Shown: positions 3,736 to 40,487 of the stretch, one piece after another
How the letters are laid out: each line of letters begins with the position of its first letter
How positions within the stretch are numbered: the stretch's first letter is position 1
Assembly (NCBI RefSeq): GCF_004005945.1
Contig: NZ_SACS01000003.1
Location: 80,790 to 144,789 of the forward strand
DNA: 64,000 bases
Direction: 5' to 3'
DNA from: Rheinheimera riviphila
Lineage (GTDB): Bacteria; Pseudomonadota; Gammaproteobacteria; Enterobacterales; Alteromonadaceae
Made by a program: the position numbers and the translations under genes
The notes under the pieces: model-generated
The model's input: the letters and a program-made list of their open reading frames with translations, nothing else
Database searches by the model: none
What the model was told of the DNA's origin: nothing

Positions 3736-4044
3736 GGGGTACTCCCTTAATATGTGAGCAATCGCGCTACGGTCAGCAGGACGTGCAGCGGCTGCATCGC
3801 TAAAGTGCCGCCACAATATGACAAGAGTTGAACGCCAACTTGATGAAAAGATTATTTTTATCTGATGAAGCCATCGACAACAACACGCCAAAAGCACGGG
3901 AATACATGTTATCCGCACCCGTTGCACTTCAAGCCAGATAACAACGCTTTATCACAATTCACAGCCAGCAGCCGTGAAAACAAGCAGGCTAAGCCCACCT
4001 GATTTTGGGATCTGTGTTTCGCATTCTGTTCAAGGAGTACCAGC
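3736..4044. promoter_or_regulatory. Divergent intergenic region between MATE-NRPS and the ABC operon
   Basis: About 309 bases with no convincing gene. It must hold promoters firing both ways. I see a short direct repeat, TGATGAA at 3841-3847 and again at 3863-3869, exactly 22 bases apart, inside an AT-rich stretch. A 22-base period is what LytTR-type regulators commonly bind, and a LytTR regulator is encoded in the operon to the right, but the repeat does not match the usual LytTR consensus. No sigma70 box pair is clear enough to place. Confidence 0.4.
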
Positions 4045-6131: not shown

Positions 6132-6149
6132 AATCAATGCCGGAGTAAA

Positions 6150-6932: not shown

Positions 6933-6935
6933 TTG

Positions 6936-8210
6936 ATGTCGCCGCTGCTGCTTATCTGTCTGCTGCAACCGGCAATTGACCCGGCGCTAGAGCCGGCATT
7001 GCCTGCTTTTTTGGCAACCGATTTGCCGGAGGTGCTGGCTAAACCACATCCAACCGCTGCCAGCAACGGTACAGCCACCGACTGGCAACTGTCTGCCGAG
7101 CTAGCGTTGAGCCGACAGCAACGACATTGGCAAAGCAGGCTGGCATTGGACAGCCGCTTCAGCCATAACAGCGACGACCAATCCGCCTATGTCCGCTGGA
7201 ACAGCAGGCTGGATGGATTTGGTGGCACGTCCGATTCCGACGACAACAGCGCTGCGGTGATGTCCTGGAAAGAGTTATACGTTGGTTATCGCTGGAACGA
7301 CAGCTGGCTGACCGAGTTGGGTCGGATCAATCAAAAAAACGGCGTGGCGCGTGGTTACAATCCAACTGATTTTTTTGCCGGTAACGCGGTTCGGGCGGTC
7401 ATTTCACAACAACCTGCGGTACTGCGTGAACAACGACTCGGCAGTTTGATGCTGCGCCAGCAATGGCTGGGTGACGCTCAGTCAGTCACGCTGTTATGGA
7501 GCCCTCAACTGGCAACCCAGCCCGACGATGCCACTTTTTCGCCGGACTGGGCGCGCACCAATGCCGTTGCCCGCTGGCAGATCAGCGCCGAGCAGCAGCT
7601 GTATACCGGCTGGACGCTCGGCCTGCTCTCTTACCAGAGTAAAAATGCTGAGCCACAGTACGGCCTGAACCTGAGCGGCGCTTTAAACGAGCGCTGGTTA
7701 TACCATCTGGAAGCCGCAACAGGTTCACAACCACAGTTCATAGTGCCGCCGGATAGCGCTTGGCATGCCAGCGATATCGCTGCCAACGTCAACGCCGGCA
7801 GCACTGCCAGCAGAGTGGCGACCGGCGTTAGTTACAGTCTGGAATTGCCGCTGACACTCACCCTCGAATGGCAATATGACGACGCCGCCGCCGGGCGCCA
7901 CGACTGGCAACAACTGCTTGAACTACCGGCATTGTGGCAACAATACCTACAACAGCGCCAGGGGCAACAACCAACCCGGCAAGCGTTGCTATTCCAGGCA
8001 CAAAGTCAGCAATGGTGGCCCGGTTTTGACTGGTCCTGCCTGTGGCTACATGATTTGCAAGACAATAGTGATATGTTATTAACTGAGTTAACATGGATGA
8101 AACCTGAGTATGACATTGTACTGCAATGGCAATGGGCTCCCGGCCCTACCCGTAGTCACTTTGGCGCAGCCAGCAGTCAGTTACAACTGCTGTTGCGTTA
8201 TTACTTCTGA
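6936..8210 (+). CDS. Putative outer-membrane beta-barrel protein
   Basis: 424 residues. A short hydrophobic N-terminus is followed by many alternating amphipathic strands rich in Trp, Tyr and Gln, ending in Tyr-Tyr-Phe. A C-terminal Phe after alternating hydrophobics is the signal recognised by the BAM complex. A motif ELGRINQKNG and a following YNPTDFF resemble DUF1302/alginate-export-like barrels often paired with LolA-like sorting proteins. I used ATG 6936; an adjacent TTG at 6933 is the alternative. No strong ribosome site is seen, so coupling to the preceding stop three bases away is likely. It may be the outer-membrane end of the export route. No TolC-type gene is present here. Confidence 0.7.
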   Translation: MSPLLLICLLQPAIDPALEPALPAFLATDLPEVLAKPHPTAASNGTATDWQLSAELALSRQQRHWQSRLALDSRFSHNSDDQSAYVRWNSRLDGFGGTSDSDDNSAAVMSWKELYVGYRWNDSWLTELGRINQKNGVARGYNPTDFFAGNAVRAVISQQPAVLREQRLGSLMLRQQWLGDAQSVTLLWSPQLATQPDDATFSPDWARTNAVARWQISAEQQLYTGWTLGLLSYQSKNAEPQYGLNLSGALNERWLYHLEAATGSQPQFIVPPDSAWHASDIAANVNAGSTASRVATGVSYSLELPLTLTLEWQYDDAAAGRHDWQQLLELPALWQQYLQQRQGQQPTRQALLFQAQSQQWWPGFDWSCLWLHDLQDNSDMLLTELTWMKPEYDIVLQWQWAPGPTRSHFGAASSQLQLLLRYYF

Positions 8211-8226: not shown

Positions 8227-9363
8227 ATGCCTGCACCTGCCGCCCAAACCAAAGATCTGCGCCACTGGCTGCGTGAGATCCTGATCCTGTTGGCAATTAA
8301 TTTTGTCATCGCCAGTCTGATGTATTTGCTCGATGACAGCACCAGCTGGCCAACCAAACTGGTGTACGCCAATGCGGTTGGTTGTTGTATCTGGGGTTTA
8401 ACCCAGCTCGGCCACGTACTGGCCAGGCAAAGGTTGCCCGTGTGGCTGATCCAGTTACTGGCGGTCCCACCGGGTTTATTTCTTGGTCTGAAAATCGCCG
8501 CCGGACTGGGTACACCTGACGTATTTCAATTTATGCAACAAAACCCGGATATTGGCTGGCGTAGCCTAATCCTGCCGCTGGTTGTTGCCATTATTGCCGC
8601 CAGCTTTGTGCTGGTACGGTATCAGGGTCAGGTCTACCGGGCAGAGCTAGAGCGCGAAAGGCGATTACTGGCAGAATACCGTCAAGCTGATACCCAGGCC
8701 CAGCTCATGTTGCTACAGGCTCAAATTGAACCGCACTTTTTGTTTAACACCCTGGCCAACGTTCACAGCCTTATCATGTTTAATCCGCAGCAGGCTCAGA
8801 CCATGCTGACCCACTTTAATGGCTATCTGCGGGCTAGCCTGCAACGCACCCGCCGCCCGCTGTCGACCTTACATCATGAGATAGAACTGATCGAAAAACT
8901 GTTGGAAATTGCCCGTATTCGCCTTGGTGATCGGCTGTCGTTTGATATTGACATCATGCCGGAACTGCACGGCAAGCTACTGCCACCGTTATTACTACAA
9001 CCGCTGGTGGAAAATGCCCTGGCGCATGGAATTGAACCCTCGCTGATCAAAGGCCATATCCGGGTACACGCCGAACTACATGGCGAACAACTATGCCTGA
9101 AAGTTACCGACAACGGCGTCGGTCTGGAAGCACAAACCCGGCAGTCGACCGGCGGCATCGGGCTGGCCAATGTCCGTAAACGGCTGCATCACCTGTATGG
9201 CGATAAAGCCCGGCTCGCGTTATACGAAAATCCACCCCATGGATGTATCAGCGAACTTTGCCTGCCGATGTCAGCCCTGGATACACCACCGGCAGTGCTG
9301 TTACCGGAAGTGCTGTTGCAGAACCGTAAGGCCGACCTTAACCCAGCTCATTATCAAGAGTAA
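8227..9363 (+). CDS. LytS/YehU-type sensor histidine kinase
   Basis: 378-residue membrane kinase. About four hydrophobic segments in residues 1-140 form the sensor, and a short coiled linker rich in Arg/Glu/Gln follows. The His_kinase domain has its phosphoacceptor in QIEPHFLFNT (His170), and the HATPase part shows QPLVENALAHG and DNGVGL with a later GIGLANVRKRL. This is the LytS/AlgZ-like class that pairs with LytTR regulators, as here: the regulator begins six bases after the stop. It probably senses an envelope or product signal and controls the flanking export or biosynthesis genes. The target is inferred from location. Confidence 0.92.
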   Translation: MPAPAAQTKDLRHWLREILILLAINFVIASLMYLLDDSTSWPTKLVYANAVGCCIWGLTQLGHVLARQRLPVWLIQLLAVPPGLFLGLKIAAGLGTPDVFQFMQQNPDIGWRSLILPLVVAIIAASFVLVRYQGQVYRAELERERRLLAEYRQADTQAQLMLLQAQIEPHFLFNTLANVHSLIMFNPQQAQTMLTHFNGYLRASLQRTRRPLSTLHHEIELIEKLLEIARIRLGDRLSFDIDIMPELHGKLLPPLLLQPLVENALAHGIEPSLIKGHIRVHAELHGEQLCLKVTDNGVGLEAQTRQSTGGIGLANVRKRLHHLYGDKARLALYENPPHGCISELCLPMSALDTPPAVLLPEVLLQNRKADLNPAHYQE

Positions 9364-9369
9364 CGCCGT

Positions 9370-10101
9370 ATGCCGACCGCTTTAATCGCCGATGACGAAC
9401 CTTTACTATTGAACTATCTATGTGACCGGCTTGCCCATTTATGGCCAGAGCTGGAGGTAGTAGCCACCGCCCGCAACGGTGTTGAAGCACTCAGTCTGGT
9501 GCACCAGCACAAACCAGATTTTGCTTTTCTTGATATTCGCATGCCAGGACTCAATGGCTTGCAGGTGGCAGAAAGCCTGCAACAGACCAGGGCGGTATTT
9601 GTCACCGCTTTTGACGAATACGCAGTTGCGGCTTTTGAACGCGCGGCCACAGATTATTTGCTGAAGCCAGTGTCCGACGAACGCTTAAAAAAATGTATCG
9701 ACCGCCTGCGTCAGCAGTTACAACCCGATCCGGCCCTACTGGCCCAATGTCTTGCCGGATTGCAGTCCCACAAAAGCAAACTGCACTGGTTTCATGTTGG
9801 ACTTGCCAACCAGACCCGGCTGGTCGCGCTGGATGAAGTGCTGTTTTTTCAGGCGTCAGACAAATACACCGAACTGGTCACTGCACATGAACGGCACGTG
9901 ATCCGTACACCGCTTAAAGAGCTGATCCGCCAGCTTGATGGCTATTTATATGCACAGGTGCACCGTAGCTACATTGTCAGTTTAAGAGCCGTTGCATTTG
10001 TCGAAAAAGACTTGTTCGGCCGCCACCAAATCCATCTGAAAGAGCACCCGGATGTGTTACCGCTGAGTCGCTCTTTTGCGGCTCAGTTTAAACAAATGTA
10101 A
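9370..10101 (+). CDS. LytTR-family response regulator
   Basis: 243 residues. The receiver domain is residues 1-120 with acidic pair D8/D9, phospho-acceptor D55 (FAFLDIRMPG), Thr in FVTAFDE and Lys in YLLKPV. A LytTR DNA-binding domain follows at about 140-243 (VLFFQASDKYTEL, RTPLKELIRQL, HRSYIVS). It is the cognate partner of the kinase gene just upstream. LytTR proteins bind pairs of 9-base repeats about 22 bases apart; the divergent regions near 3.8 kb and 33.9 kb are the first places to look. All phosphorylation residues are intact. Confidence 0.93.
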   Translation: MPTALIADDEPLLLNYLCDRLAHLWPELEVVATARNGVEALSLVHQHKPDFAFLDIRMPGLNGLQVAESLQQTRAVFVTAFDEYAVAAFERAATDYLLKPVSDERLKKCIDRLRQQLQPDPALLAQCLAGLQSHKSKLHWFHVGLANQTRLVALDEVLFFQASDKYTELVTAHERHVIRTPLKELIRQLDGYLYAQVHRSYIVSLRAVAFVEKDLFGRHQIHLKEHPDVLPLSRSFAAQFKQM

Positions 10102-10120
10102 GGAAACAGGAGATAGACGT

Positions 10121-10777
10121 ATGCGTAGAATCATTTTGTTATCAAGTATCGCGCTGTTGGTTTTACCTGGCTGTAAGGTCAGCAAAGTGCGGGACATTAT
10201 CAAAGACTATGACTACAAAAATAGTTACCAACTGATTAACGCCAGCACTGAGCCAGTGGACATCCATATTGGTTCACATGACAACAGCGGGCGGGCACCC
10301 AATATCAGCGACGGCAAATATCGTGTCGGCAGTCTTGAAGCCGGTCAGGACAGTGTCAGCACCAAAGTTAAACGTGACAACATCGATTACCGCGTTTCAG
10401 TACAAAGCTTTCAGCGACTGGATAAAATCGGCAGTAACCACCTGATTTATGACGTTAAAAACGACGACGACCAGACCGTCATCGCTTGGCAGGACAATAA
10501 AACCCCACGTATCAGCGCTTTTAAAAAACACAGCAGTGATCAAAGTGGCGTTTACCGGGTGCGTTTTTTCGCCGTTGCCAATGGCATTGAAATCAAAGCC
10601 GGCGGCATCAGCCAATTGCTGGAAAAAGGTCAGCCCAGTGGCTGGTTCAGCCTGCAGAATTGCAAGGGCGAATTCAGCATTAATGGCAAAGCACTGGATA
10701 TCTGTCAGGCCACGGCCGGTCAATCGTTCTTGCTGGTCATCGGTCCCGACAAAGTGTTAAGTATGAGCCGCGGCTGA
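10121..10777 (+). CDS. Hypothetical lipoprotein
   Basis: 218 residues, not a family I recognise. The N-terminus is a lipoprotein signal: MRR, a hydrophobic run, then the lipobox LPGC with Cys19 or so as the lipidated residue. The mature protein looks all-beta, with a pattern like LINASTEPVDIHIG reminiscent of immunoglobulin-like or DUF4397-type repeats; that is a weak impression. Start set at ATG 10121, which has AGGAG eight bases upstream, not at the longer frame. It sits between the response regulator (19 nt gap) and the thioesterase (one-base overlap), so it belongs to the operon. A periplasmic accessory to the exporter, or self-protection, is possible. Confidence 0.75.
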   Translation: MRRIILLSSIALLVLPGCKVSKVRDIIKDYDYKNSYQLINASTEPVDIHIGSHDNSGRAPNISDGKYRVGSLEAGQDSVSTKVKRDNIDYRVSVQSFQRLDKIGSNHLIYDVKNDDDQTVIAWQDNKTPRISAFKKHSSDQSGVYRVRFFAVANGIEIKAGGISQLLEKGQPSGWFSLQNCKGEFSINGKALDICQATAGQSFLLVIGPDKVLSMSRG

Positions 10778-11592
10778 TGGGGTCCCTCGTTTCGGCCAGC
10801 CGTTGGTTCAGTTCGCAGCGTCTGATAACCGGTAGGATAAGCGGGCAACAGTTGCCAGAGCAAGCTCAGGCGCTGTTGCTGGCGGTGCCTTTTGCAGGCG
10901 GCAACGAGCATGTGTACCGGCCTTGGCTTGAATTATTACCACCGTGGCTGGACTTTCAAACCGTGCAGTTGCCCGGGCGTGGCCGGCGCTTTTTTGAGCC
11001 CAATGATTTGTCGATTGAACAAATGGCGGCCGCAATCGTCGCCGGTTTACCTACACTGCTGGCAAACCGGCCCTGGGTGTTGTTTGGCCACAGTATGGGG
11101 GCCCGTATCGCTTTTGAAATATTGCATTTGTTACCTACTCCATTGCAACCGGCAGCGGTGGTGCTAAGTGGCGCCCGCGCGCCGTTTTTACCAGCGACCA
11201 CCCGCGATGTTGCCAAAAAAGATCGTACAGCTTTTATTCAGCTGCTGCGCGAAATGAACGGCACGCCAGCTGAGATCCTGCAAAACGACGAGCTACTCGA
11301 TTTGTTTCTGCCGATGTTGCAACGGGATTTTGCGCATGTTGAACACTATCGCAGTGCGCCGGAACGGCCTTTGCTGCACCAGCCTAACTGCTTTGTGTTT
11401 GGTGGTGATCAGGATCCGGACATCAATCAAAGCCATCTGGTTGCCTGGCAACAGTGTTTTGCCGAGCCGATTGCGGTACAGCTGCTTACGGGTGACCATT
11501 TTTTTATCTTCGGTCACGGCCAGGCATTGCTGGAACCGCTGCTGCAGGCACTTCAACCGCTGGTGTCAGCCAGATCACAGACAACGGCATAA
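10777..11592 (+). CDS. Type II thioesterase (GrsT/RifR-like)
   Basis: 271-residue stand-alone alpha/beta hydrolase. Visible are the early VPFAGG loop, the QLPGRG motif, the nucleophile elbow GHSMGA (Ser near residue 108), Asp in FGGDQDP and the catalytic His in GDHFF. These are the marks of editing thioesterases that free stalled or mis-primed carrier proteins in NRPS/PKS lines. It overlaps the lipoprotein stop by one base and ends the plus-strand operon, tying that operon to the assembly line on the other strand. It could also hydrolyse an aberrant starter from the first PKS carrier. No terminal (type I) thioesterase is visible in the window. Confidence 0.92.
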   Translation: MGSLVSASRWFSSQRLITGRISGQQLPEQAQALLLAVPFAGGNEHVYRPWLELLPPWLDFQTVQLPGRGRRFFEPNDLSIEQMAAAIVAGLPTLLANRPWVLFGHSMGARIAFEILHLLPTPLQPAAVVLSGARAPFLPATTRDVAKKDRTAFIQLLREMNGTPAEILQNDELLDLFLPMLQRDFAHVEHYRSAPERPLLHQPNCFVFGGDQDPDINQSHLVAWQQCFAEPIAVQLLTGDHFFIFGHGQALLEPLLQALQPLVSARSQTTA

Positions 11593-11643: not shown

Positions 11644-12636
11644 TCAGCGGCTCAGTTGCTGCAACAAGACGGCACTTTGTACTGCCTGGGCATCCGGCTG
11701 ATAGGGTGTACGGTTCAGCGACTGTGGATCAAAATCGCCAAGGGCGACCGGCGCAGTTAACGGTCGGCCATAACCTGTTGCAGCGCCTGGCATCGGTGGC
11801 GCCAGTTCCAGTTGTAACCGGCTTAACTCCGCTACAAAACGTTTGTCCGGTAGCACCGAATGGTGGGCTCGCAACCGGATGTGCTGACTGCCACTTTCCA
11901 GCACAAATTCCCCCTGCAAAATAGCCAAAGGTTCTGCCGGCGTTTGTTGCTGGCCAAGTACTGCCTGTACCCGGTACAAACCGGCCTGTTGAACTTGCAG
12001 CTGCAACGGCAATACTAAATCACTGTCGTCTGCTTCCAGCGCCAAGGGTTGCTCCAGCCAGGCTACCGGCTGGTTGTAACTAAGTTTCGCCAGCGCACCA
12101 TGGCCAGGTTCACTTTCCACACTCAGTTCGAGTTCCGCAGGGAAATCCGTTTGCCCCTCCAGTTCAAGCCGGAACAGGCCATCAGTCTCCGCTACTAATA
12201 CGCCACTACTGACCAGTTGTTGGTCAAGACTACGCAGTTGGTAACGTATGACCGCCAGCTGCTCCCCCTGCACCCTGACCGTTGCTGTAATAGGCTCCGG
12301 ATAACTGAAACGGTATTGGCTGAGCTGTAATTGCCAGACGATGCCATCGTCCAGCGGCACTGTGATTGCTGCCACTGCGGGCGGTTCAGTTTGCGCCAGA
12401 TTTTCGGCCGTCACAGCCTGAGAATAAGGTGGGCTCAGTAGTTGTGCGGTAAATTTTTGAACCTGATCGGACGGCGTTGGCGTCGCTGCAAGCAATGGTG
12501 CTGCCGGGGTCTGAGCCACAGCTTCAGCTGGCGCATCGACCCGCGCTGGTAACACAGGGGCCAACACTTCGGGCTGCCAGTACCAGGCCGTCATCAACAT
12601 CGCCAGCGCCATCAGCATTAACATTATTGGTTTCAT
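11644..12636 (-). CDS. Hypothetical exported or membrane-anchored protein
   Basis: 330 residues, unrecognised. A Met-rich hydrophobic N-terminus (about residues 3-20) serves as signal peptide or anchor, followed by an Ala/Pro/Thr-rich linker (about 25-75) and then a region of beta-sandwich-like strands (about 85-290) full of Gln, Leu and Val. Start chosen: ATG 12636 with GAGGAG five bases upstream; a GTG six bases earlier overlaps that site. It follows the hydrolase gene by about 80 nt with a strong hairpin between. Its size and place behind a secreted hydrolase recall lipase helper proteins, but I see no sequence support for a Lif-type foldase. The stop lies about 50 bases from the convergent thioesterase. 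Confidence 0.6.
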   Translation of the reverse strand: MKPIMLMLMALAMLMTAWYWQPEVLAPVLPARVDAPAEAVAQTPAAPLLAATPTPSDQVQKFTAQLLSPPYSQAVTAENLAQTEPPAVAAITVPLDDGIVWQLQLSQYRFSYPEPITATVRVQGEQLAVIRYQLRSLDQQLVSSGVLVAETDGLFRLELEGQTDFPAELELSVESEPGHGALAKLSYNQPVAWLEQPLALEADDSDLVLPLQLQVQQAGLYRVQAVLGQQQTPAEPLAILQGEFVLESGSQHIRLRAHHSVLPDKRFVAELSRLQLELAPPMPGAATGYGRPLTAPVALGDFDPQSLNRTPYQPDAQAVQSAVLLQQLSR

Positions 12637-12658
12637 AAGCACTCCTCATCCGCATCAA

Positions 12659-12714: not shown

Positions 12715-13770
12715 TTACATTGCTTTTCGCTGCACCAGTGCCGAAACCGGCGTCGTGGCCGAATCGACGACAAAACGATAAGTACCGCTGAAAGGCCATT
12801 TGGCTTTTTCATCTTTACTAGCAATCGACAACCGGCCACTACCAAAGCTGACATTGTTACTGGCCGTGGTGTACTTACCCGCCGTTTTGTTGCTGACCAA
12901 CGCTGAATGGGAATAACCCAACGCCATCAATAACGGCAGGTGATTTGGCATAAAGCTGGTCACTGCATCGCTGGAGAAACCAACTTTACCATCCAAATCA
13001 ACCTGATGACTGCAGCTGACATAAGCCGCCGCTTTTGCAGCACCACAAGAAGAGTGACTTGCGACCACCCCGTCATCCTGACCGGGTAAAAACGACTCCG
13101 TGATCCAATAATAATCAGTACCACCGCCAATAAACCGCACTCGCGGCACTCGGTTCACCGGCGCACTGATCAATGCCCGGGCGGTATTGACCGACAAATC
13201 ATTTAAAACACCGACATTGGCACGGGTCGGTTCAAATCCGAGCCAGGCCTGCACGGCTTTTTTCACCAGCGTCCCGGCTTTTCCGTCGGCCACGTTCAAT
13301 GCCAGATCTGCTAATTCAGAACCACCACCAGCACCGGCAAAGTCAAAAGTCGCAATAATATTCAGCGGAGCCAATCCGGCATTGCGTAACCAGTTGGCCT
13401 GGTTCTCCAGCAGATAACGCGCGACCAGATCGCCGGTTGAATGTGTGACCAGCACACAACCCGGTTGACACAGATTGTCTCTGGACATCTGCTGCAGTTT
13501 TGGCCACAGATAATGGCTGGCAATTTTACCTTCAATCCGTTCATGTGACGGCCAGTCAATCCGTGCGCTGGCATGCTGTAACCAGAATTCCTGCCAGTAT
13601 GTTTCGCCATTGGCGGTGACGGCAGCTGCGTCCGGCTTGCTTTGTAACTGTGACGGCTGGAAGCCATGTAACAGCACATACTTATAATCTGCCGCCTGAG
13701 CGGTGCTCATCTGTAAAGTTCCCAGCGTGGCAGCCAGTGCCAGCATCAGCATATGTTTTTTCATCATCAT
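12715..13770 (-). CDS. Secreted alpha/beta hydrolase, lipase-like
   Basis: 351 residues. A Sec signal peptide is cleaved after the TAQA around residue 26. The oxyanion loop LLHGF comes straight after it, and the nucleophile elbow is THSTGD (Ser near 111; Thr replaces the usual first Gly). Later conserved Asp in PGQDDG and His in FMPNHLPLL are plausible triad partners. It fits bacterial triacylglycerol lipase/esterase families. AAAGGA lies upstream of three tandem ATGs at 13770, 13767 and 13764; the second or third has the better spacing. It is the first gene downstream of iorA, 270 nt away, so it may have its own promoter. Whether it acts on the cluster product is unknown. Confidence 0.78.
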   Translation of the reverse strand: MMMKKHMLMLALAATLGTLQMSTAQAADYKYVLLHGFQPSQLQSKPDAAAVTANGETYWQEFWLQHASARIDWPSHERIEGKIASHYLWPKLQQMSRDNLCQPGCVLVTHSTGDLVARYLLENQANWLRNAGLAPLNIIATFDFAGAGGGSELADLALNVADGKAGTLVKKAVQAWLGFEPTRANVGVLNDLSVNTARALISAPVNRVPRVRFIGGGTDYYWITESFLPGQDDGVVASHSSCGAAKAAAYVSCSHQVDLDGKVGFSSDAVTSFMPNHLPLLMALGYSHSALVSNKTAGKYTTASNNVSFGSGRLSIASKDEKAKWPFSGTYRFVVDSATTPVSALVQRKAM

Positions 13771-14040: not shown

Positions 14041-16041
14041 TCATTCTGCCGGATAAAACTGCACAGCGTCGACTTTGGCCGCGGCAGCCGCTTTTTGCTG
14101 GCGTCGATCCAACAGGGCGCGCAAGCGATGCTCCAGTTTTTTTAGCCAGGGTGCCAGCACCGGTTGCTGATTTAAAATCCGAATCATCCTTGCCCATGGC
14201 AGTTTGCCTGCAACTCGCGCCAGTGGTTTGGCCAACGGACCTGTTGCCGGTACCAGCATACTGACAGACAACGGCACAATCGCCTGTTCCGGACAAAGCT
14301 GACTACAGAGTCCACAGCCGATACAGCTACTGCTGATTGCGATATGCGCTTGATCTTGATCCAGCGCCGTCACTTCAAAATTCTGGCAGTTCGTTTCCTT
14401 CACGCAATCGCCACAGCTGGTGCAGACTGACTCCAGAATGGTGTAGCGAAACGGCGTTTCGTCTTTGATATTGAGCTCCTGTACACAACTGCCTTTAAGC
14501 ACCAACACCGACAATGCCGGACGGGCCAGTTCCGTATCAAGCCAACGCTCAATTGCCGCTGGCTCCAGTGAAGGCAGCACCTGACAATGCACCACACCAA
14601 GACTTTGCAGCAGTGCCAGCCACTTGTCTGCGGTCAGCGATAAACTGGTGTACTGCATGCCCGTCATCGCCGAGCCGCTGTTGTCGAGAATAATCACAGT
14701 CCCATGACATTCCTGACGAGCCAGCGCCATCATGCCGGTCATCCCAGAGTGGAAGAACGTCGAATCACCCAGCACCGCGACACATTCGGTAGCCGCCTGC
14801 ACACCTAAACCGTCGAGATAACCTTGTAACATGCCAAGACTGGCTCCCATGCAGAGGTTGGTATGTAAGGCACTGAACGGTTCAAGCGAACCAAGCGTCG
14901 AGCAGCCGATATCCCCGACCACATACAACTCACGCTGTCTGAGGATCTGAAAAATACCGGTATGCGGGCATCCGCCACAAAAGCCTGGCAAACGCGGTGG
15001 TAGGTTATCCAGCCAGCGAATATCGATGGTCGCAGGCATGGTCGCGCGAATAAAACTGTCCAGCTCCGGTGCTTGCTCTGATCGCAGCGTCTGCAGACTA
15101 AATTCACCGACCCCGTCATAATCCGGTTTATCCAACGTCGCTATACCCAGACTGCGCACTTGCTGGTCAAGGTACCCAGACGACTCTTCCGCCACCAGAA
15201 TTCGCTCACATAGCGCAGCAAAGGCGCGGATCTGTTGTTGAGGCAGCGGATAAACCAGCTGCAACTGCAGCAATGGCAAATCCTGCCCCAGTAACTCCTG
15301 TACCACGCCGGATGGGAAACCACTGCTGATAATGCCAAGCGGATACCGACTTTGCAGTTTATCCGGCAGCGTCCGTACACAGAGCTTGTCTGCTATCTGA
15401 CTTTGTGCCAGTGCCTGTAGATTGTGGTTTCGTCGTTCATGGCAGCCGGGGACAAAAGCCGGCAACAGCAAGTATTTCTGAATTGGGCTGGCAAACGAAC
15501 CAATGTGATCTTGTGGTTGCCTGTCCTGACGCTCCAACTTATCTTTGCTGTAACACAGCCTCGAAGTCAGGCGTAATACCACCGGCAAATCAAACTGTTC
15601 GGACAGCTCAAATGCCAATCGGGTCAATGCCTGCACTTCCTGCACCGTCGCCGGTTCAAGCACCGGCACGCCAGCTGCCAGACAAAGCAGGCGGGTATCC
15701 TGTTCATTTTGCGAATTACGCGCACCAGGATCGTCACCAACCACGACCACCAATCCGCCCACTACACCGGTGTAAGCAAGATTGAAAAATGGATCGGCAG
15801 CTACATTTAAGCCAACGTGTTTCATCACCACCAAAGTGCGGGCACCACTGTGGCAAGACCCCGCGGCCATCTCCATCGCGACTTTCTCATTGGTCGCCCA
15901 GCAGCTTTTCACTTGCGGCAGCCGTTGCATGACTTCAACAATTTCCGTGACCGGACTTCCCGGATAGGAATACAGCATTTTGACACCGGCCTCCCAGGCA
16001 CCAAAAGCAGCAGCTTCACAACCTGAGTGATAATTCAGCAT
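14041..16041 (-). CDS. iorA: Indolepyruvate (arylpyruvate):ferredoxin oxidoreductase, alpha subunit
   Basis: 666 residues. The family converts aryl-pyruvates plus CoA to aryl-acetyl-CoA, CO2 and reduced ferredoxin, using thiamine diphosphate and Fe-S clusters with an IorB partner. The pyrimidine-binding domain is N-terminal (YPGSPVTEI near 30, ATNEKVAMEMAAG near 50). The TPP domain follows the GGCPH motif and ends with GDSTFFHSG and LDNSGSAMTG. Two [4Fe-4S] motifs follow: CTSCGDCVKETNC and CIGCGLCSQLCP. An extra tail of about 70 residues after the clusters, hydrophobic then Lys/Ala-rich, is unusual. AAGGA precedes the ATG. It is the downstream gene of the PKS-iorB run. A role in starter-unit supply is inference; general aromatic amino acid breakdown is the alternative. 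Confidence 0.9.
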   Translation of the reverse strand: MLNYHSGCEAAAFGAWEAGVKMLYSYPGSPVTEIVEVMQRLPQVKSCWATNEKVAMEMAAGSCHSGARTLVVMKHVGLNVAADPFFNLAYTGVVGGLVVVVGDDPGARNSQNEQDTRLLCLAAGVPVLEPATVQEVQALTRLAFELSEQFDLPVVLRLTSRLCYSKDKLERQDRQPQDHIGSFASPIQKYLLLPAFVPGCHERRNHNLQALAQSQIADKLCVRTLPDKLQSRYPLGIISSGFPSGVVQELLGQDLPLLQLQLVYPLPQQQIRAFAALCERILVAEESSGYLDQQVRSLGIATLDKPDYDGVGEFSLQTLRSEQAPELDSFIRATMPATIDIRWLDNLPPRLPGFCGGCPHTGIFQILRQRELYVVGDIGCSTLGSLEPFSALHTNLCMGASLGMLQGYLDGLGVQAATECVAVLGDSTFFHSGMTGMMALARQECHGTVIILDNSGSAMTGMQYTSLSLTADKWLALLQSLGVVHCQVLPSLEPAAIERWLDTELARPALSVLVLKGSCVQELNIKDETPFRYTILESVCTSCGDCVKETNCQNFEVTALDQDQAHIAISSSCIGCGLCSQLCPEQAIVPLSVSMLVPATGPLAKPLARVAGKLPWARMIRILNQQPVLAPWLKKLEHRLRALLDRRQQKAAAAAKVDAVQFYPAE

Positions 16042-16118
16042 TTATATATCCTTCTGAGCTCAATCCTGTTGAGCTAAATCCGTGGTGTTTTTATCCAATC
16101 AACCCAGCCACCGATCAA

Positions 16119-16754
16119 TCAGGCCCGCTTGAGACCGTGTTCTGGTGCGTCCGGTAAATCCTGTTGTTCCAACCAGTCAAAACCGGCGGCCAAGGCGCGT
16201 TGATTTGGCTCCAGGTACGCGGACGGCACCGTTTCACCGAGCAATTGCGCAGCAAAACTGTGTGAAAAACCGTAGCTGGCACAAAACACCCCAAACATCA
16301 CGGCCGAGCTGAACTTGTCAGCCAGTTGTTCACGGCGTAACAGCTGTTGCATTGGGATCACCAATAACGCGCAGTGCTGCGAAAACGCCTGTACAATATG
16401 TTGAAAATCAGGGTATTGCCGCTGTCGCGCCAGACTACGGCCTGTCGGAAACTGTAAATCAGATAACAATGTCATAGTGCCCCGCTGACACAACGGCAAT
16501 TTACGCAACGCTTCCAGCGGCTCCAGCCCAAGCAGATAATCGGTGTGCTGTGAATACAGACACGACGTTTCGATATGCCGGCCCGCCCGCAACACCGCGC
16601 TGACGCTGCCCGTACGCTGGGCGATGCCCCGCTCTTCAGAAGTAATCACCCGCGGATGACGTTGGTATAACGCCATGCCGGTCAACCGGGTCAGCAGGAT
16701 ATTGCCAAGACCACCGACGCCGGTGATCACCACATTGGTATAGGATTGCCGCAT
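16119..16754 (-). CDS. iorB: Indolepyruvate:ferredoxin oxidoreductase, beta subunit
   Basis: 211 residues of the pyruvate-ferredoxin oxidoreductase gamma-type fold. The nucleotide-loop-like motif is VVITGVGGLGN at the N-terminus, followed by TSEERGIAQRTGSVSAVLR, which is highly typical of IorB. It pairs with the alpha subunit gene 77 nt downstream to form the arylpyruvate oxidoreductase. AAGGAG lies six bases before the ATG. Its start is only 17 nt after the stop of the aminotransferase-bearing PKS, so it is almost certainly in the same transcript. Separate iorA and iorB genes are the archaeal/anaerobe layout, whereas many proteobacteria carry a single fused enzyme. Confidence 0.9.
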   Translation of the reverse strand: MRQSYTNVVITGVGGLGNILLTRLTGMALYQRHPRVITSEERGIAQRTGSVSAVLRAGRHIETSCLYSQHTDYLLGLEPLEALRKLPLCQRGTMTLLSDLQFPTGRSLARQRQYPDFQHIVQAFSQHCALLVIPMQQLLRREQLADKFSSAVMFGVFCASYGFSHSFAAQLLGETVPSAYLEPNQRALAAGFDWLEQQDLPDAPEHGLKRA

Positions 16755-16771: not shown

Positions 16772-19700
16772 TCAGATTGTTAAAGCCGATGGTATAGCAT
16801 GGCCGTGCGCTTCTTTATGCTGCTCGGCCTGCCGGTAAAACGCAAAACCGCCGTGCCGTAACTGCGTCGCAGCAGCACGGCAGGCCTGTAAGATCACGTC
16901 GATATCGTCATACTGATGGGCAACTGAAAGGAAACAAGTGCGTCGTTCCCAGACGTACACACCTTTGGTCAGCAACAAACTGAAAAACAACTGCTGTTGG
17001 AGTCCCTGTAACCGGAAATCCACCCCACCACAAGGTTCAAAACGGAACAACGAACCAAAGTGACTGATTTGCAGTGGCACGTTGTCGGTGCTGAAATACT
17101 GATTCAGTGCTGTCACTAAGGTTGTGGTCAGGTCATTGACCTGCTGCTGCAGCACACCGTTGCTGTCACGCAGCCGCAGTAATACCGCCCGGGCAGCAGC
17201 CATCGTCAGCGGATGTTTGCAGAACGTACCGGCAAACACCGTGGTTTTTTGATTTGGCACAGAATCATCGCCAAACTGCCAGCTGCCGCCATCGATACAC
17301 CCCATAAACTTGGCTTTACCGGCTACGACACCCAGGGGCATGCCGCCGCCCAGTACTTTGCCGTAAGTGACCAGATCGGCCTCCACCGCAAAGTGCTGCT
17401 GCGCGCCTTTTTGCCCGGTGCGAAAACCGGTAATAATTTCATCGATGATCAGTAAGCAGCCCTGTTGCAGGGTCAGTTGGCGCAGTTGTTGTAAAAAGGC
17501 GGCTGGTTGCAAACCAGGTTTACGGCTCTGTACCGGTTCAACCAGCACCGCTGCAATTTCAGCTCCCTGCGCGGCAATAGCTGCAAGCGCTTCGTCACTG
17601 CCATACCGCAGCACAATGACATCCTCAACCATACCCGCCGGAATGCCTGGCGCACTCGGCACCGCACCATATTCGCCATTATCAGCGAGTACACCGTCAT
17701 AAGTACCGTGGTAAGAGTCTTTAAAAATCACAATTTTGCTGCGCTGCGTGACAGTGCGGGCAACCCGCACAGCCACGGTGACAGCTTCAGAGCCGGTGTT
17801 GCAAAATGCCACCCGCTCCACGCCGGTCAGCTCGCAAATCAGACTCGCCACTTCACCGGCTAGCGCGTTTTGCGGCCCTAAATCAACACCAAGAGCCAGC
17901 TGTGTCTGCATGGCTTCGCGGACAAAATCCGGATTATGGCCAAAAAATCCCACGCCATAACTGCCCGAAATATCCAGATACTCGTTGCCGTCAACATCGG
18001 TAAAACGCGCGCCAGCCGAGCGGGCTGACACAATGGGATACACCATTTCCTTTAACGTCAGACTGAAATTCAGGCTGGCGATCCAGTCGGCTAGTACCGG
18101 GCGGTACTGACCCGCATATGCCTTTGACTGACCGGTACGGGCAACATGATCAGTCACCAGGTGTTGCACAAACGTCAGCTGTTGCGGATTTAACCCTTCG
18201 CGGTTAAACAACATGCCACGTGCCTGGTTACTCTGGCCATTGGCAATGTCGGCCGGAACCGCAGCCATCGCCGCCGGCTGCCGTACTTTTGCCGGCGTGA
18301 CGCTGTCATCCTCGGGACTGAGATGAGAGGTACTTTCAGGGACTGCACTGGCAAGATCCGGTTCGAAGTCAACCGGAGTCTGTGCCAATAAGTGCAGCTG
18401 CTGAGCCATCAGTTGATTCATTTGATCCATTTGTGCCAGCTGCAGCTGCAATAGCTGCGCCAGTCCGGGTTCCAGCACGCTGCCCGTGGTCACCTGCAAA
18501 TTCGGTTGCGGCAACGTCGGTCGTAGTATTGCGGTGGTGCTTGACGCCATCGAAACAACCGGCGCGGCAGCGATAGTCACTGCTTGTGGCGCCGGTGCAA
18601 GTTGTGCCTCTAACTCGGCCGGATATTCACTGAGTAAATAACTCACCAGCGCACTGACGGAGCTGTGCTGCTGGAACAACTGCTCCACCGCCACTTCCAA
18701 CTGATATTTCTGCAGCAACCGTTGTTGCAGCTGCACCACCATCAGGCTGTCGAGCCCCAGTTCAAACCAGTGTGCGTCCGGTTTAATCTCGGCGGGCGTC
18801 AGCCCGGAAATCTGGCTGAGTAGTTGCTGTAATTGTTCCTGTAATAGCGCTGGCAATTGACCAGACGCACTGCCGGTTGCCATGGCAGAAGCCATCACGG
18901 CGCCGGGCGAAAGAGCTGAAAGTTCAGAAAAGGACATTGAAGACTCCTGTACCGGCCCGGCGGGCACGGTTTGGTCATTTAACGGGATCCAGAATTGCTG
19001 GTGATCAAAGGGATAAGCCGGTAACGGCAATAGTGCAGTTGGTTCGCTGTATAACGCTTGCCACTTTACATCGAAGCCGGTTTGCCATAACTGGCCAACC
19101 GCATCCAGCCAGGCCCGGTCGGCCGGCCAGCTTTTACGCAGGCTGCACAGTACCAGTTGCTGTGGATAATCGGCGGTCAACAGCGCACTTAACGTGGCGT
19201 GGCCACCAAGCTCCAGCAAGATACCGGTATTGGCACAAGCCACGGCGGCAGCTTCGCGAAACCGCACCGGTGCCGTAATTTGTCCTGTCCAGTACTCAGC
19301 GGTTAAATCAGCGACTTGCAGCGGTAATGCGGTCACATCAGAAATACATGGGATCCGACCTTGGCGCGGCTGAATATGTGCGATTGCAGCGGCAAATTCG
19401 GTCTGCATACCCGCGAATGCAGGACTGTGAAAAGCCTGGGTGACATCCAGCAATTTGTTGCGAATGTGCTGACTGTCAGCCCACTGCTGCGCCAACGCTA
19501 TTGCAGCCGGATCACCACTGAGCGTGATACTGTGCCGGGCATTGTCCGCCGCCAAGACCAGTCCAGCGTCCGTCCGTTGACTGTTGACAGCCGCCAAACA
19601 TTCCGGCCAGCGCTCTGCTGCCATTTGCAGCGCCAGCATCTGACCTTCACCACAACGCTGCATTAGCTCGCCACGGATACAGCAAATTTCCAGCGCCTGC

Positions 19701-21751
19701 TCCAGTGTGTAAAAACCGGCGACGGCAGCAGCGGCAATACCACCGATACTGTGACCAACCACCACAGCTGGCGCCAGTCCCAGACTTTGCCAAAGCTTAA
19801 ACAGCGCCCATTGCACGGCCACGATAGCAGGCTGTGTCCTGCTGGTTTGCTGTAAGGTTGCTTGTGCTTCATCGGCTTGCCCGTCAGCTGGATACAACAA
19901 GGCCAATAAAGACCAGCCGCGCTGTGTCGTCAGCCACTGCTCAGCTTCATCCAGCGCTTGACGAAATACCGGATAATGCTGGTAAAGCGCCAGTCCCATT
20001 TGCAGTGACTGACTGCCCTGGCCACTGAAGCACCAGACCATACTTTTATTGCTACGTTTTGCTGGCAGTTGCAGCGTTGCCCCGTCAATGGCTGCCGTTG
20101 CAATTGCAGCCTGACATTGCTGCGCCAATGCCACGGCACTATCCGCCAGCAGTGGCAAGCGCAGTGGCAGACTGGCTCTGCTACGCCAGGCACTCGCGCA
20201 ATAAGCCATAAAATCTTTTTGTATCAATGCCCTATCTTGGTAACGCCTCACGAGCTGCGCCAGTGCTGCCGGGCTTTTTGCCGACACTGGCAGGAGCTGC
20301 CAGCGTGGTGTTGCTTCCTCGGCTGTGGCGCCGACCACAGCAGCCGGTGCACGCAATACCACATGCGCATTGCTACCACTAAAGCCAAAGGCGCTGATCC
20401 CGCAGGTCGGTCGGCCACTGCGTCCGGTAAATTGTTCCAGCGAGGTTTGCATCTGTAGTGGCAACTGCTCCAGTTGGATCAGCGGGTTCGGCTTTTGAAA
20501 ATGCAGGCTTGCCGGTAGTTGCTGGTGTTTGATACAGAGCACCAGTTTAATCAGCCCGGCAATCCCTGCGGCCGCTTCCAGATGACCAATCTGTGATTTC
20601 ACACTGCCGATCCGCACCGGCGTAGCGGCATCGGCAAACACTTCAGCCAGCGCCTGTGCTTCTATCGGATCACCAAGCGGGGTGCCGGTGCCGTGCAGTT
20701 CCACATAATCAACTTCATCCGGTTGCACACCGGCCGCCTGCAATGCCTGACGGATCACCTGCTGCTGCGCCAGTCCGTTGGGAGCAGTCAGGCCATTACT
20801 GCGACCGTCCTGATTCACTGCACTGCCACAAATCAGCGCCAGCATCTCATCACCAGTTGCTATAGCATCAGCTTCACGTTTTAACACCACCACCCCACAA
20901 CCTTCACCACGGCCATAACCATCGGCACTGGCATCAAAGGTTTTGCAGCGGCCATCCGGTGCTAAGGCATCAAGCTGTGAAAATGCCACAAAAGGCTCAG
21001 GTGTCAGCATCAGATTGACCCCGGCAACGATGGCCAGATCACACTCGCCGGCACGCAGGCTTTGTACCGCCTGATGTAGCGCAACCAGCGATGATGAACA
21101 AGCCGTATCGACGGCAAAACAAGGGCCATGCCAGTCATAAAAATAACTCAGCCGACCGGAAGCGGTACTGGCATGCACGCCGGTCAGGGCATAAGCACTG
21201 ATGTTGTCGCTGTTCAGCGAACCCATATGCGCTTTAAAATAATCATTGCTGCCAAGACCAACAAAGACCCCGGTATTGCTGCCGCGCAGTTGCTGTGGAT
21301 CAAGCCCGGCGTGCTGTAGCGCCTGCCAGCTGACTTCGAGTAACAGCCGTTGCTGCGGATCCAGCGCCTTGGCTTCTACGGGCGTGATGTCAAAAAAGCG
21401 CGCATCAAAACCGGCGACATCGTCGATAAAACTGGCATGACGCACATAACTGCGACCGCTGACTTTGGGCTGACGCTGGCCGTCGAACCATTGCTCGGCG
21501 GCAAAACGGTTGGCCGGCACCGGCCCCACCGCATCAACACCGCCCGCCAACAGCTGCCAGTAAGCATCGGCATCATTGGCGCCGGCCGGGAACCGGCAAC
21601 CAACGCCGATCACCGCCACTGCCGACTGCCGCTGCGCCTGACTGGCTTTCAGATCGGCATCCAGTTTCTGGATTTGACCGACCGCCCGGCGCAGTGCCTC
21701 TTTATATTTCACTTCAGCTTGCTGATATTTAACTTCCGTTTGCTGATCCAT
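16772..21751 (-). CDS. Polyketide synthase with terminal aminotransferase (KS-AT-ACP-AMT)
   Basis: 1659 residues. After a short N-terminal docking helix, KS runs about 42-470 with triad Cys218 (DTACSSS), His353 (HGTGT) and His390 (GHLEAAAG). AT spans 570-880 with GHSIGG (Ser668), malonate-binding Arg693 and QAFHSP, consistent with malonyl-CoA. ACP has LGLDSL (Ser1002). A Gln/Leu-rich linker follows, then a class III PLP aminotransferase from about 1180 to 1659 with Asp1437 and Lys1465 (TYGKVLGGG). There is no KR or DH, so the beta-keto thioester would go directly to a beta-amine, as in McyE and mycosubtilin-type systems but without the C-methyltransferase of McyE. The protein ends at AMT; the next partner must be a separate NRPS. 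Start ATG has GGAG upstream; 12 nt from the preceding PKS. Confidence 0.95.
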   Translation of the reverse strand: MDQQTEVKYQQAEVKYKEALRRAVGQIQKLDADLKASQAQRQSAVAVIGVGCRFPAGANDADAYWQLLAGGVDAVGPVPANRFAAEQWFDGQRQPKVSGRSYVRHASFIDDVAGFDARFFDITPVEAKALDPQQRLLLEVSWQALQHAGLDPQQLRGSNTGVFVGLGSNDYFKAHMGSLNSDNISAYALTGVHASTASGRLSYFYDWHGPCFAVDTACSSSLVALHQAVQSLRAGECDLAIVAGVNLMLTPEPFVAFSQLDALAPDGRCKTFDASADGYGRGEGCGVVVLKREADAIATGDEMLALICGSAVNQDGRSNGLTAPNGLAQQQVIRQALQAAGVQPDEVDYVELHGTGTPLGDPIEAQALAEVFADAATPVRIGSVKSQIGHLEAAAGIAGLIKLVLCIKHQQLPASLHFQKPNPLIQLEQLPLQMQTSLEQFTGRSGRPTCGISAFGFSGSNAHVVLRAPAAVVGATAEEATPRWQLLPVSAKSPAALAQLVRRYQDRALIQKDFMAYCASAWRSRASLPLRLPLLADSAVALAQQCQAAIATAAIDGATLQLPAKRSNKSMVWCFSGQGSQSLQMGLALYQHYPVFRQALDEAEQWLTTQRGWSLLALLYPADGQADEAQATLQQTSRTQPAIVAVQWALFKLWQSLGLAPAVVVGHSIGGIAAAAVAGFYTLEQALEICCIRGELMQRCGEGQMLALQMAAERWPECLAAVNSQRTDAGLVLAADNARHSITLSGDPAAIALAQQWADSQHIRNKLLDVTQAFHSPAFAGMQTEFAAAIAHIQPRQGRIPCISDVTALPLQVADLTAEYWTGQITAPVRFREAAAVACANTGILLELGGHATLSALLTADYPQQLVLCSLRKSWPADRAWLDAVGQLWQTGFDVKWQALYSEPTALLPLPAYPFDHQQFWIPLNDQTVPAGPVQESSMSFSELSALSPGAVMASAMATGSASGQLPALLQEQLQQLLSQISGLTPAEIKPDAHWFELGLDSLMVVQLQQRLLQKYQLEVAVEQLFQQHSSVSALVSYLLSEYPAELEAQLAPAPQAVTIAAAPVVSMASSTTAILRPTLPQPNLQVTTGSVLEPGLAQLLQLQLAQMDQMNQLMAQQLHLLAQTPVDFEPDLASAVPESTSHLSPEDDSVTPAKVRQPAAMAAVPADIANGQSNQARGMLFNREGLNPQQLTFVQHLVTDHVARTGQSKAYAGQYRPVLADWIASLNFSLTLKEMVYPIVSARSAGARFTDVDGNEYLDISGSYGVGFFGHNPDFVREAMQTQLALGVDLGPQNALAGEVASLICELTGVERVAFCNTGSEAVTVAVRVARTVTQRSKIVIFKDSYHGTYDGVLADNGEYGAVPSAPGIPAGMVEDVIVLRYGSDEALAAIAAQGAEIAAVLVEPVQSRKPGLQPAAFLQQLRQLTLQQGCLLIIDEIITGFRTGQKGAQQHFAVEADLVTYGKVLGGGMPLGVVAGKAKFMGCIDGGSWQFGDDSVPNQKTTVFAGTFCKHPLTMAAARAVLLRLRDSNGVLQQQVNDLTTTLVTALNQYFSTDNVPLQISHFGSLFRFEPCGGVDFRLQGLQQQLFFSLLLTKGVYVWERRTCFLSVAHQYDDIDVILQACRAAATQLRHGGFAFYRQAEQHKEAHGHAIPSALTI

Positions 21752-21763
21752 ATCCGGCTCCGT

Positions 21764-24700
21764 TTAATCCAGCAACGCGGCGATATCCGCCAGCACGTCG
21801 GCACTGCTTTCGGTGGCCACGATCTTCGGCTGCAGCTCCGGTAACGCCTGCTGCAACAGATAGTCGGCCGCTTTACGCAATGTTGGATAATTAAAGAAAA
21901 ACGATGCCGGCAACTTCACCCGATAGGCGCTCGCCAACTGGCTGCGTGCTTCGACCATCATCAGTGAATCGGCACCAAGGTCCATCAGCGGCAGGTCCGG
22001 ATCCAGACTTTGCTGCGGGCTATATCCCAGGACTTTGGCGGTGATGGTATTCATCTGCTCCAGCAATAAGGTGAGGCGCTGTGCCGGTTCGGCTTGTTGC
22101 AACAAACTCAACCAAGCCGGAACTGCAGCTGAATTTGTAGTCGTCTGCGCATCCGGTAACAGCGCGCTGAACAGGCCATAACGCTGAGCCGGTGCGGCAA
22201 ATCCCTGATGTAATGCCCAATCCATATCGACCACCGCTGGTGCAGCCACTTGTTGTGTCAGGAGTTGCCACAACGCAGCCATGCCCTGCGCCGGACTCAG
22301 GCTATGAATGCCGCGCGCCGCCAGTCGATCACCACGCCTCGCATCGTCACTTGCCATACCGCCGTCCAGCCAGGGGCCCCAATTCACAGCGGTCGCGACT
22401 AATCCTTGTTGTTGACGCAACGTTGCTAATGCGTTCAGAAACTGGTTGGCGGCGACATAGTTACTTTGGCCTGGACTGCCAAACAATGCCGTCACCGAGC
22501 TAAACAACACAAAACAATCCAGAGTCAGCGCCCTCGTCGCCTGATGCAGATGCCAGGCCCCCAGCGCTTTACCGGCAAACACCTGACTGAAGCGTGCCAT
22601 CGTCTGGTCGGCAATCAGCCCGTCGTCCAGCGCACCGGCGCAGTGGAACACACCACCCAAGTCCGGCGTTTGCGCCACCAGTGCACTCACCGCCGCGCTA
22701 TCCGCCACCTCCAGCAACTGATACTGAACTTTGATTTGTTCGTTGCCAGCCAACGCCTGCAGCCATTGCTGCGTCGCCGCATCCGGCGCCTTGCGCCCGG
22801 TCAGCAATAACGAACAAGCCCCACGCTGCAACAATGACTCAGCCACCTGCCGACCCAGTGCACCAAGCCCGCCGGTGATTAAATATGTGCGATTAGCCTG
22901 CGGTTTAAATGCCGCAACGGCCGGCAGCCGCAACCGTTCCAGTCGCGCCAGCGCCGCACTGCCTTGTTGCAAACGCCACAGCGGTTCGTGTTGGGTCGCT
23001 TCAATATCGGCCTGCAACAAAGTGGTCAGAGCGCTGATGTCAGCAGCTGATCCACCATTCGTCTGGCCTTCAGTCACACCATCCATCAGCACCGTCGCAC
23101 GCCACAGATCCGCATGTTCCAGCGCGATAACCTGTGACAAACCAAGCAACGCCGACTGAGCCACTGCACTGGACGCCGTATTGTCCAGCAACAACCACAG
23201 CTGGAACGGATGAGCTCCCTGCGCAATTTGTTGCACTAAAGTCAGCAGTGCGCCGTAATGCGCGGTAAGTTCGGTTTGAAACTCTGGCGTGGCAACAGAT
23301 AAATCCAGTGCTGCGGCATAAACCAGCTGCGTCGGCGTCGTGACAACACCTTGTTTAGACACCGAGGCGCAGTGCTGCCACAGACTTTGCAGTTCAGCCT
23401 CTGTAGTCAAGTCCGCGTGCAGATGTCGCAGTGCTGGTAACGACGCCTGAGCCACCTGCAATTCGCTGAAGGTCGGCCACAGCAGACTGACAACGTGGCC
23501 TTGTAAGGCCAGTTCGCTGCCAAGCCGGGTCGCCACACCACTTCTATCTGCCACCAGCAGATAATGTTGCGGGCTTGGGCTGCTGCTTGTGCTGATTTGA
23601 GGTAATGCTGCGGGCAACCAGTCTTGCTGATAAAGCAGTGGCGCTGTATTGACCTGCAAATTGCGCAGCAATACCGACTCGGCACTGCGTTTGGCGGTAA
23701 TGCCTTCTATCGTCAGTAACACGGTGCCGGTGGCGTCACACACCGTGATATCACTGGTCATCACGTCAGAGCCCTGCTGCACATCATAGTCACAGGTATA
23801 AGCCCAGACTTCTGCCGGGATTGTTTTGGCATAAAGGCAAACCCGACCAATCGAAATCGGAATAAATGCCCGGCGGTCTTGTTGCAGCTGAACAAAATCA
23901 AGTGCTGACACCGGTAACGAGGTATGGAACAAAGAGTCAATCAACCCCGGGTACACCAGATAAATATCCTGATCCGGTACATCAGCCTTTAACGTCAGCC
24001 GTGATAAACCTTCGTTATGGCCTTTAAACACCTGTTGGATGCGGCGAAAGCCATCTCCGAGTTTAAAACCAAGACCAGAGAAAAACTGATTAAAGGCACT
24101 GACATCAACTTCAGTGGTGAACTTTTGTCGCAGTGCCGCCAGATCCAGAGCCGCCGGCGTCTGGTTGATACCACTTAGCACCCGGCCGCTGCAGTGCCGG
24201 GTGAAGTCACTGCCTGCCAGCAACGCATCACGGCTGACCAGCACAAACTGATGCTGCTGTTGCTGTGGCTGTTGTTGAAGATCAGGGGTCAGGATCACCT
24301 GCCCGGCACGGCGTTCACCGTCGCGGGCAATCAAAGGTGCCAGAAAATCAATGTTTTCCAGCACGGCGACCGGTTGCTGCAGTACATCACGGGCGGCTGA
24401 CAACAACATCGACACATGCGCAGCCGCCGGCGAGATTGGCGTGTCATACACAATATGTTCGGCCATAAAATAAGGGGTGGTGGCGCTGTATTCGCGCGCA
24501 AACACAATTTGCTCACCCAATGCCGGCGTATCAAAACGCTCGCCCAACAATGAATGTTGCAGTCTGGCGCCAAGCTGCGACTGTTGCGTCCGCTCTGATG
24601 ATGTCGGCTGCGGCGAGGTAAAGTCATAACGCAGCGGCATCCAGTGGGACTCACGCTGGAACGGGTATGTGGGAATGGCCACGCGTCGCGCCTGTTGCGC

Positions 24701-38444: not shown

Positions 38445-40487
<2,043 letters not shown>

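Follow-up and report, generated by a model that had tools for sequence, protein, structure and literature searches.

A 64,000-nucleotide stretch of DNA from the gammaproteobacterium Rheinheimera riviphila (contig NZ_SACS01000003.1, positions 80,790 to 144,789 of the forward strand; hereafter the window) carries a polyketide synthase (PKS)-nonribosomal peptide synthetase (NRPS) island in which two adjacent genes, iorB and iorA, follow a PKS gene with an aminotransferase domain. Judged by sequence, the pair (iorAB) encodes the two subunits, one IorB-like and one IorA-like, of a 2-oxoacid:ferredoxin oxidoreductase that depends on thiamine, and both subunits are real but divergent members of that family. 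The pair is proposed to be a dedicated precursor-supply enzyme that would form the acyl-CoA starter of the PKS-NRPS line from a 2-oxo acid, probably an arylpyruvate; the probability of this reading is put at about 0.6.

On the sequence evidence, it is almost certain that iorAB is part of the island. As the original prediction had it, iorB lies 17 nt past the aminotransferase PKS gene (PKS3) and is followed on the same strand by iorA; both open reading frames (ORFs) and the spacing were verified on the minus strand, with 77 nt between iorB and iorA. At E ≤ 1e-20, IorA is matched in 3 of 22 same-genus genomes, namely that of R. riviphila and two metagenome-assembled genomes (MAGs), G636 and G638 (loci L051 and L052); the 19 others are without a match. 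In all three, iorAB sits beside the aminotransferase PKS while the insertion sites differ, which bears out the claim that the pair belongs to the PKS operon and not to the host core. Both MAGs keep the window order of PKS3-iorB-iorA-hydrolase, have the hydrolase-332-aa protein-thioesterase-233-aa protein-regulator-kinase genes on separate contigs and carry orthologues of PKS1, PKS2 and the NRPS on further contigs. Identities to the MAG copies are 86-87% for IorA, 89-92% for IorB and 84-95% for the hydrolase, with stretches of the NRPS 80% (G638) and 82% (G636) identical.

The gene set exceeds the window. By comparison to the island-free genome G137, the host flank ends at contig position 70323 and resumes at 115345 (window 34556); the island thus comprises window positions 1-34555 and contig positions 70324-80789 (G000:C48), or ~45.0 kb, of which ~10.5 kb lies left of the window start. 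All eight same-genus relatives examined, G636 and G638 included, carry the host site of the window without the island. On the fetched stretch, the host flanks are ~95-235 bp apart in seven (G137, G045, G633, G223, G083, G636 and G638), and in G632 the nitroreductase gene begins 286 bp past the fetched stretch, as judged by coordinates. On the PKS1 side of the cluster, to which the comparison is confined, PKS1 begins next to a chaperonin and a DsbD-like gene in G636 and, in G638, next to Dus and an AICARFT/IMPCHase (PurH) gene, and similarity to the window upstream of PKS1 ends after ~210-216 bp. These data place the three clusters, each with iorAB, at three different sites and indicate that the island moves horizontally as a unit. 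A core-genome gene that adjoins the PKS by chance is ruled out by the empty sites and the 3/22 distribution, and iorAB at this site in PKS-free relatives, the outcome to be expected had the original prediction been wrong, was looked for and not found. No integrase is recognised among the family-scanned genes of the ~45-kb island.

Both genes are under purifying selection. Pairwise omega across the three clusters is 0.047-0.056 for iorA and 0.044-0.063 for iorB (compared to 0.060-0.077 for the aminotransferase domain and 0.028-0.045 for the regulator), values that are approximate because dS is 1.1-2.1 and so above 1. A contig scan with IorA, based on six exact peptide patterns that middling-identity relatives can escape, gives 15 loci, of which two are close (86 and 87% identity) and 13 are distant, one being a short fragment. 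Among the matches listed for 246 family, 398 phylum and 394 order genomes, all samples drawn from larger groups, no further near-full IorA exceeds 39% identity. Five of 141 matching plasmid records cover at least 80% of IorA, the best at 37.6% identity. The recurrence of iorAB beside an aminotransferase PKS, raised as a possibility with the original prediction, is seen in G636 and G638. The ketosynthase (KS), acyltransferase (AT) and aminotransferase (AMT) domains of the window have no match at 1e-8 at the 61 other loci (L003-L065 minus L051 and L052), where the flanks covered do not exceed 1.5 kb (L003-L050) or 10 kb (L053-L065).

The family assignment rests on both subunits. IorA matches TIGR03336 (IOR_alpha) over its whole length (429.7 bits, E 1.5e-128, residues 4-588 on model positions 4-595 of 595) and includes POR_N (PF01855), TPP_enzyme_C (PF02775) and Fer4 (PF00037) domains above the Pfam cut-offs, while IorB matches the POR family (PF01558) at 60.4 bits (cut-off 27.4). 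At E ≤ 0.001, the genome has one POR-domain match and one IorA match, which are the window iorB and iorA. Of the solved structures, four distinct sequences are weakly matched by IorA (best E 7.7e-6), and IorB has no match. In an alignment (A1) to 16 comparator IorAs (L022-L028, L053-L060 and L064; partial sequences L061-L063 and L065 and the more distant L029-L050 set aside, as were L155-L158), the island IorA is 32-38% identical to the comparators and keeps Glu52, the GD...N and AMTG.Q thiamine-site stretches and all eight cysteines for two [4Fe-4S] clusters. The three island IorAs form one long-branched clade and have an island-specific C-terminal tail of 84 residues past the last cluster cysteine, compared to 3-30 in 16/16 comparators. 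With a net charge of +9 to +10 in the three island proteins, this tail is basic; the body of the window IorA is net -21. The island IorA is read as a working enzyme altered for a new job, a change that may concern the substrate or the acceptor.

The starter role is drawn from the loading domain of PKS1. Malonyl-type ATs use an arginine to bind the carboxylate. In the N-terminal AT of PKS1, the active-site serine (GHSTG) is kept and this arginine is replaced by histidine in 3/3 clusters, whereas AT2, AT3 and the host FabD retain it; alignments to the tylactone and CurL ATs agree with the replacement. The claim that the loading AT-acyl carrier protein (ACP) pair is suited to a monocarboxylic acyl group is thus supported, and the domain is predicted to fit a monocarboxylic acyl thioester. 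Other matches to this loading AT at E ≤ 1e-38 are 32-35% identical and occur in 3 of 369 class genomes besides that of R. riviphila, and relatives on plasmids (two records) are 31-34% identical. Among the scanned island genes (ORFs right of 44165 unscanned), no CoA ligase, ammonia lyase or dehydrogenase complex is recognised, in line with the earlier view that the window has neither a CoA ligase nor a cinnamate-type route. The best match to phenylacetate-CoA ligase (PaaK) in the genome is at 93.2 bits (cut-off 646.3), an absence that alone is weak evidence, since only one of 14 control genomes passes that cut-off.

The remainder of the line is of the beta-amino-acid PKS-NRPS type, with a class III aminotransferase in line behind KS-AT-ACP and an NRPS in the cluster. 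The PKS3 aminotransferase includes a TYGK motif and is 50.1% identical to that of bacillomycin BamA and 50.6% to that of a Planktothrix NRPS/PKS; by analogy to the BamA/iturin-type AMT, it likely installs a beta-amino group. In the proposed pathway, a housekeeping aminotransferase would convert an amino acid, most likely aromatic, to the 2-oxo acid. IorAB would use thiamine diphosphate to decarboxylate this acid oxidatively, with two electrons relayed via the [4Fe-4S] clusters to ferredoxin and the acyl group leaving as a CoA thioester. The loading AT of PKS1 would then place the monocarboxylic acyl group on the loading ACP. Two units with dehydratase (DH)-ketoreductase (KR) processing would be added by PKS1 and PKS2 and one by PKS3, whose aminotransferase would form a beta-amino thioester. 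The three-module NRPS would take over the PKS3 product and extend the chain, and its thioesterase would free the product. We infer the arylacetyl identity of the starter, the enzyme activity, CoA as the acceptor, the protein-protein hand-over and the order of steps. If the arylacetyl starter is right, the product is predicted to have an aryl-CH2 group, two unsaturated units, a beta-amino acyl end and a short peptide.

Several points weigh against an arylacetyl-CoA starter made by IorAB. Neither subunit reaches the curated IOR equivalog cut-offs: IorA scores 429.7 bits relative to 650.9, and the top three beta models give IorB 86.3, 78.3 and 78.1 bits relative to 238, 237 and 205.8, which is why the subunits are described as divergent. 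Five residues that are invariant in 16/16 comparators are changed in 3/3 island IorAs (S109N, H164Y, V169L, Y381S and D393H), and between AMTG.Q and the next invariant glycine there are 18 residues compared to 25-30 in 16/16 comparators; the substrate may therefore not be an arylpyruvate. All three clusters are from one genus, and two (G636 and G638) are split over draft MAG contigs. The 425-aa and 233-aa island proteins are without a family, and either could be an unrecognised starter supplier. PKS1 module 1 has no recognisable extender AT (nothing credible with all filters off, best 0.7 bits), which leaves the role of the single PKS1 AT not fully settled. The extender for this module must come from elsewhere, and the nucleotide motif of KR1 is weakened (TGGQSALAA, compared to TGGLGALG in KR2); the lack of a second AT and this altered motif leave the first extension step only partly explained. 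The KS-DH gap of PKS1 (window 30230-31102, residues 890-1180) spans ~290 residues without a recognisable AT and is 49% identical to the G638 orthologue, compared to 92% for the KS. Family membership also does not settle the substrate, as VOR-type enzymes use aromatic 2-oxo acids as well: in the excerpt available of one paper, the IOR cluster is described as enzymes for indolepyruvate, phenylpyruvate and hydroxyphenylpyruvate, and the hydroxyphenylpyruvate enzyme of that paper groups with VORs (PMC13285125).

The alternative that best survives is that IorAB forms a non-aromatic starter (e.g., a branched or unusual acyl-CoA) from another 2-oxo acid. Although this is unlikely, it would account for the scores under the curated cut-offs and for the changed residues and shortened stretch of IorA. 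IOR is, on the other hand, the best family match, and branched acyl-CoAs usually come from the housekeeping branched-chain dehydrogenase, such that a dedicated gene pair would be unnecessary. A further point in its favour, from the part available of a second study, is that the enzyme groups overlap in substrates and that no motif was found to predict the oxidation of indolepyruvate (PMC13290082).

A role after priming, in which IorAB provides a later building block or tailoring group (an acyl group or 2-oxo acid for the NRPS) or runs reductively, is doubtful. The position of iorAB behind the aminotransferase PKS and the codes of the A1 and A2 adenylation domains of the NRPS, which resemble no code known to us, are consistent with it, but the arginine-less loading AT needs a monocarboxylic acyl thioester for which no other supplier is recognised in the island, and the reductive direction requires strongly reduced ferredoxin. 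Improbable too, as an extension of the starter role, is that the altered active site and basic tail of IorAB dock on PKS1 and that the acyl group is handed to the loading ACP and not to free CoA, which would make IorAB a ferredoxin-linked, oxygen-sensitive integral loading unit of a modular PKS-NRPS. That iorAB is a passenger with no role in the product, as the presence of other island genes of unclear role (the hydrolase and 332-aa protein) might suggest, is very hard to reconcile with purifying selection in three species (omega ~0.05), retention in the operon in 3/3 clusters at differing sites and the lack of an IorA match at E ≤ 1e-20 in the 19 other same-genus genomes.

The favoured role, supply of an arylacetyl-CoA starter, has parallels in several systems. 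The two-subunit IorAB enzymes (TIGR03336/TIGR03334) share with the island pair the domain order, thiamine motifs, eight cluster cysteines and adjacent iorB and iorA genes; the island pair differs in its scores under the cut-offs, five changed residues, long basic tail, short stretch past AMTG.Q and location within a PKS-NRPS operon. The iturin/bacillomycin BamA and cyanobacterial Adda-type lines have in common with the island a KS-AT-ACP-aminotransferase module (AMT ~50% identical) and an NRPS. These lines use a fatty or phenylpropanoid starter activated by ligase or adenylation domains and, to our knowledge, are without IorAB. A literature search for Adda-like lines in Alteromonadales found no paper. 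In ripostatin biosynthesis, phenylpyruvate is reportedly decarboxylated oxidatively to the phenylacetyl PKS starter by a pyruvate-dehydrogenase-like complex, whereas the island would use a ferredoxin-linked Fe-S enzyme. Closest in chemistry to the island proposal is Ior1 of Phaeobacter, an IOR-type enzyme which, according to the excerpt available of a review, converts phenylpyruvate, once the two PaaK ligases are inactivated, to phenylacetyl-CoA that feeds the secondary metabolite tropodithietic acid (PMC5577590). In Phaeobacter, Ior1 is an alternate route beside the PaaK ligases, and it serves a compound formed via phenylacetate catabolism and not a PKS starter; by contrast, the island gene pair is encoded within the cluster, and no PaaK in the genome exceeds the cut-off. 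Among the papers listed on IorAB with polyketides or NRPS, titles and abstract openings describe no use of IorAB as a PKS starter supplier. The novelty first claimed for this type of priming is thus narrowed: the feeding of a secondary metabolite by an IOR is known from Ior1 and the chemistry is not confined to one family, while a cluster-encoded, modified IorAB that is apparently dedicated to a modular PKS is new, its placement in such a line having no apparent precedent in the literature searched.

Starter units fix much of the structure of a polyketide. The 2-oxo acid:ferredoxin oxidoreductase family is known mainly from anaerobic amino acid breakdown. A cluster-encoded ferredoxin-dependent oxidoreductase would, if the proposal is true, add another route, one that needs no ATP, by which common amino acids can give unusual starters. 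The adjacency of iorAB to an aminotransferase PKS may serve as a marker for finding new polyketide-peptides, and the product that the proposal predicts, an arylacetyl-primed beta-amino dienoyl peptide, is specific enough to be sought by mass spectrometry.

The features of the operon and of the rest of the island within the window are listed in Table 1.

Table 1. Genes of the PKS-NRPS island in the window, with domain and family assignments (window positions).
Feature	Position	Strand	Description
iorA-like subunit	14041..16041	-	666 aa; thiamine diphosphate domains; 8 Cys predicted for two [4Fe-4S] clusters; basic C-terminal tail
iorB-like subunit	16119..16754	-	211 aa; POR gamma-type domain
PKS3	16772..21751	-	KS-AT-ACP-class III aminotransferase (Aminotran_3, Pfam)
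PKS2	21764..27427	-	KS-AT-DH-KR-ACP (Pfam); AT with Arg kept
PKS1	27449..33769	-	AT-ACP-KS-(no recognisable AT)-DH-KR-ACP (Pfam); N-terminal AT, residues 6-306, candidate loading AT
NRPS, N-terminal part	1..2230	-	whole gene L126:8302-19020, 3572 aa; three condensation, three adenylation and three carrier domains, terminal thioesterase
MATE exporter	2263..3927	-	family scan
ABC exporter ATPase, FtsX-type permease, LolA-like protein and 425-aa protein without recognised family	4045..8210	+	family scan
Histidine kinase (8227-9363) and LytTR response regulator (9370-10101)	8227..10101	+	in 3/3 clusters
233-aa protein without recognised family	10076..10777	+	in 3/3 clusters
Type II thioesterase, stand-alone	10777..11592	+	PF00975; also in G636 and G638
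332-aa protein	11644..12642	-	adjoins hydrolase in 3/3 clusters; weak DUF4785 match under cut-off
Hydrolase	12715..13770	-	signal-peptide-like start; lipase-like by eye; no Pfam family above cut-off

Left of the window, past the NRPS, the island includes a phosphopantetheinyl transferase (Pfam match above the cut-off, EntD model under its cut-off) and a MipA/OmpV-like protein. The ABC ATPase, FtsX-type permease and LolA-like genes are absent from the fetched pieces of the G636 and G638 clusters, to which the search was confined. Of the 22 same-genus genomes, 15, that of R. riviphila among them, have a paralogue of the hydrolase (51-54% identical) at another place. The code of the third NRPS adenylation domain (A3), read by hand as D-I-L-Q-L-G-V-I-W, has a likeness to a glycine code that is not used as evidence. 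In the close relative G137, which is island-free, the NRPS condensation region is matched 45 times on contigs C1 and C19, and the genus seems rich in NRPS clusters. In the host flank, a FadH/OYE-type oxidoreductase (window 38445-40481; under the curated cut-offs) is located beside glycogen genes and is present in both relatives whose right flank was fetched.

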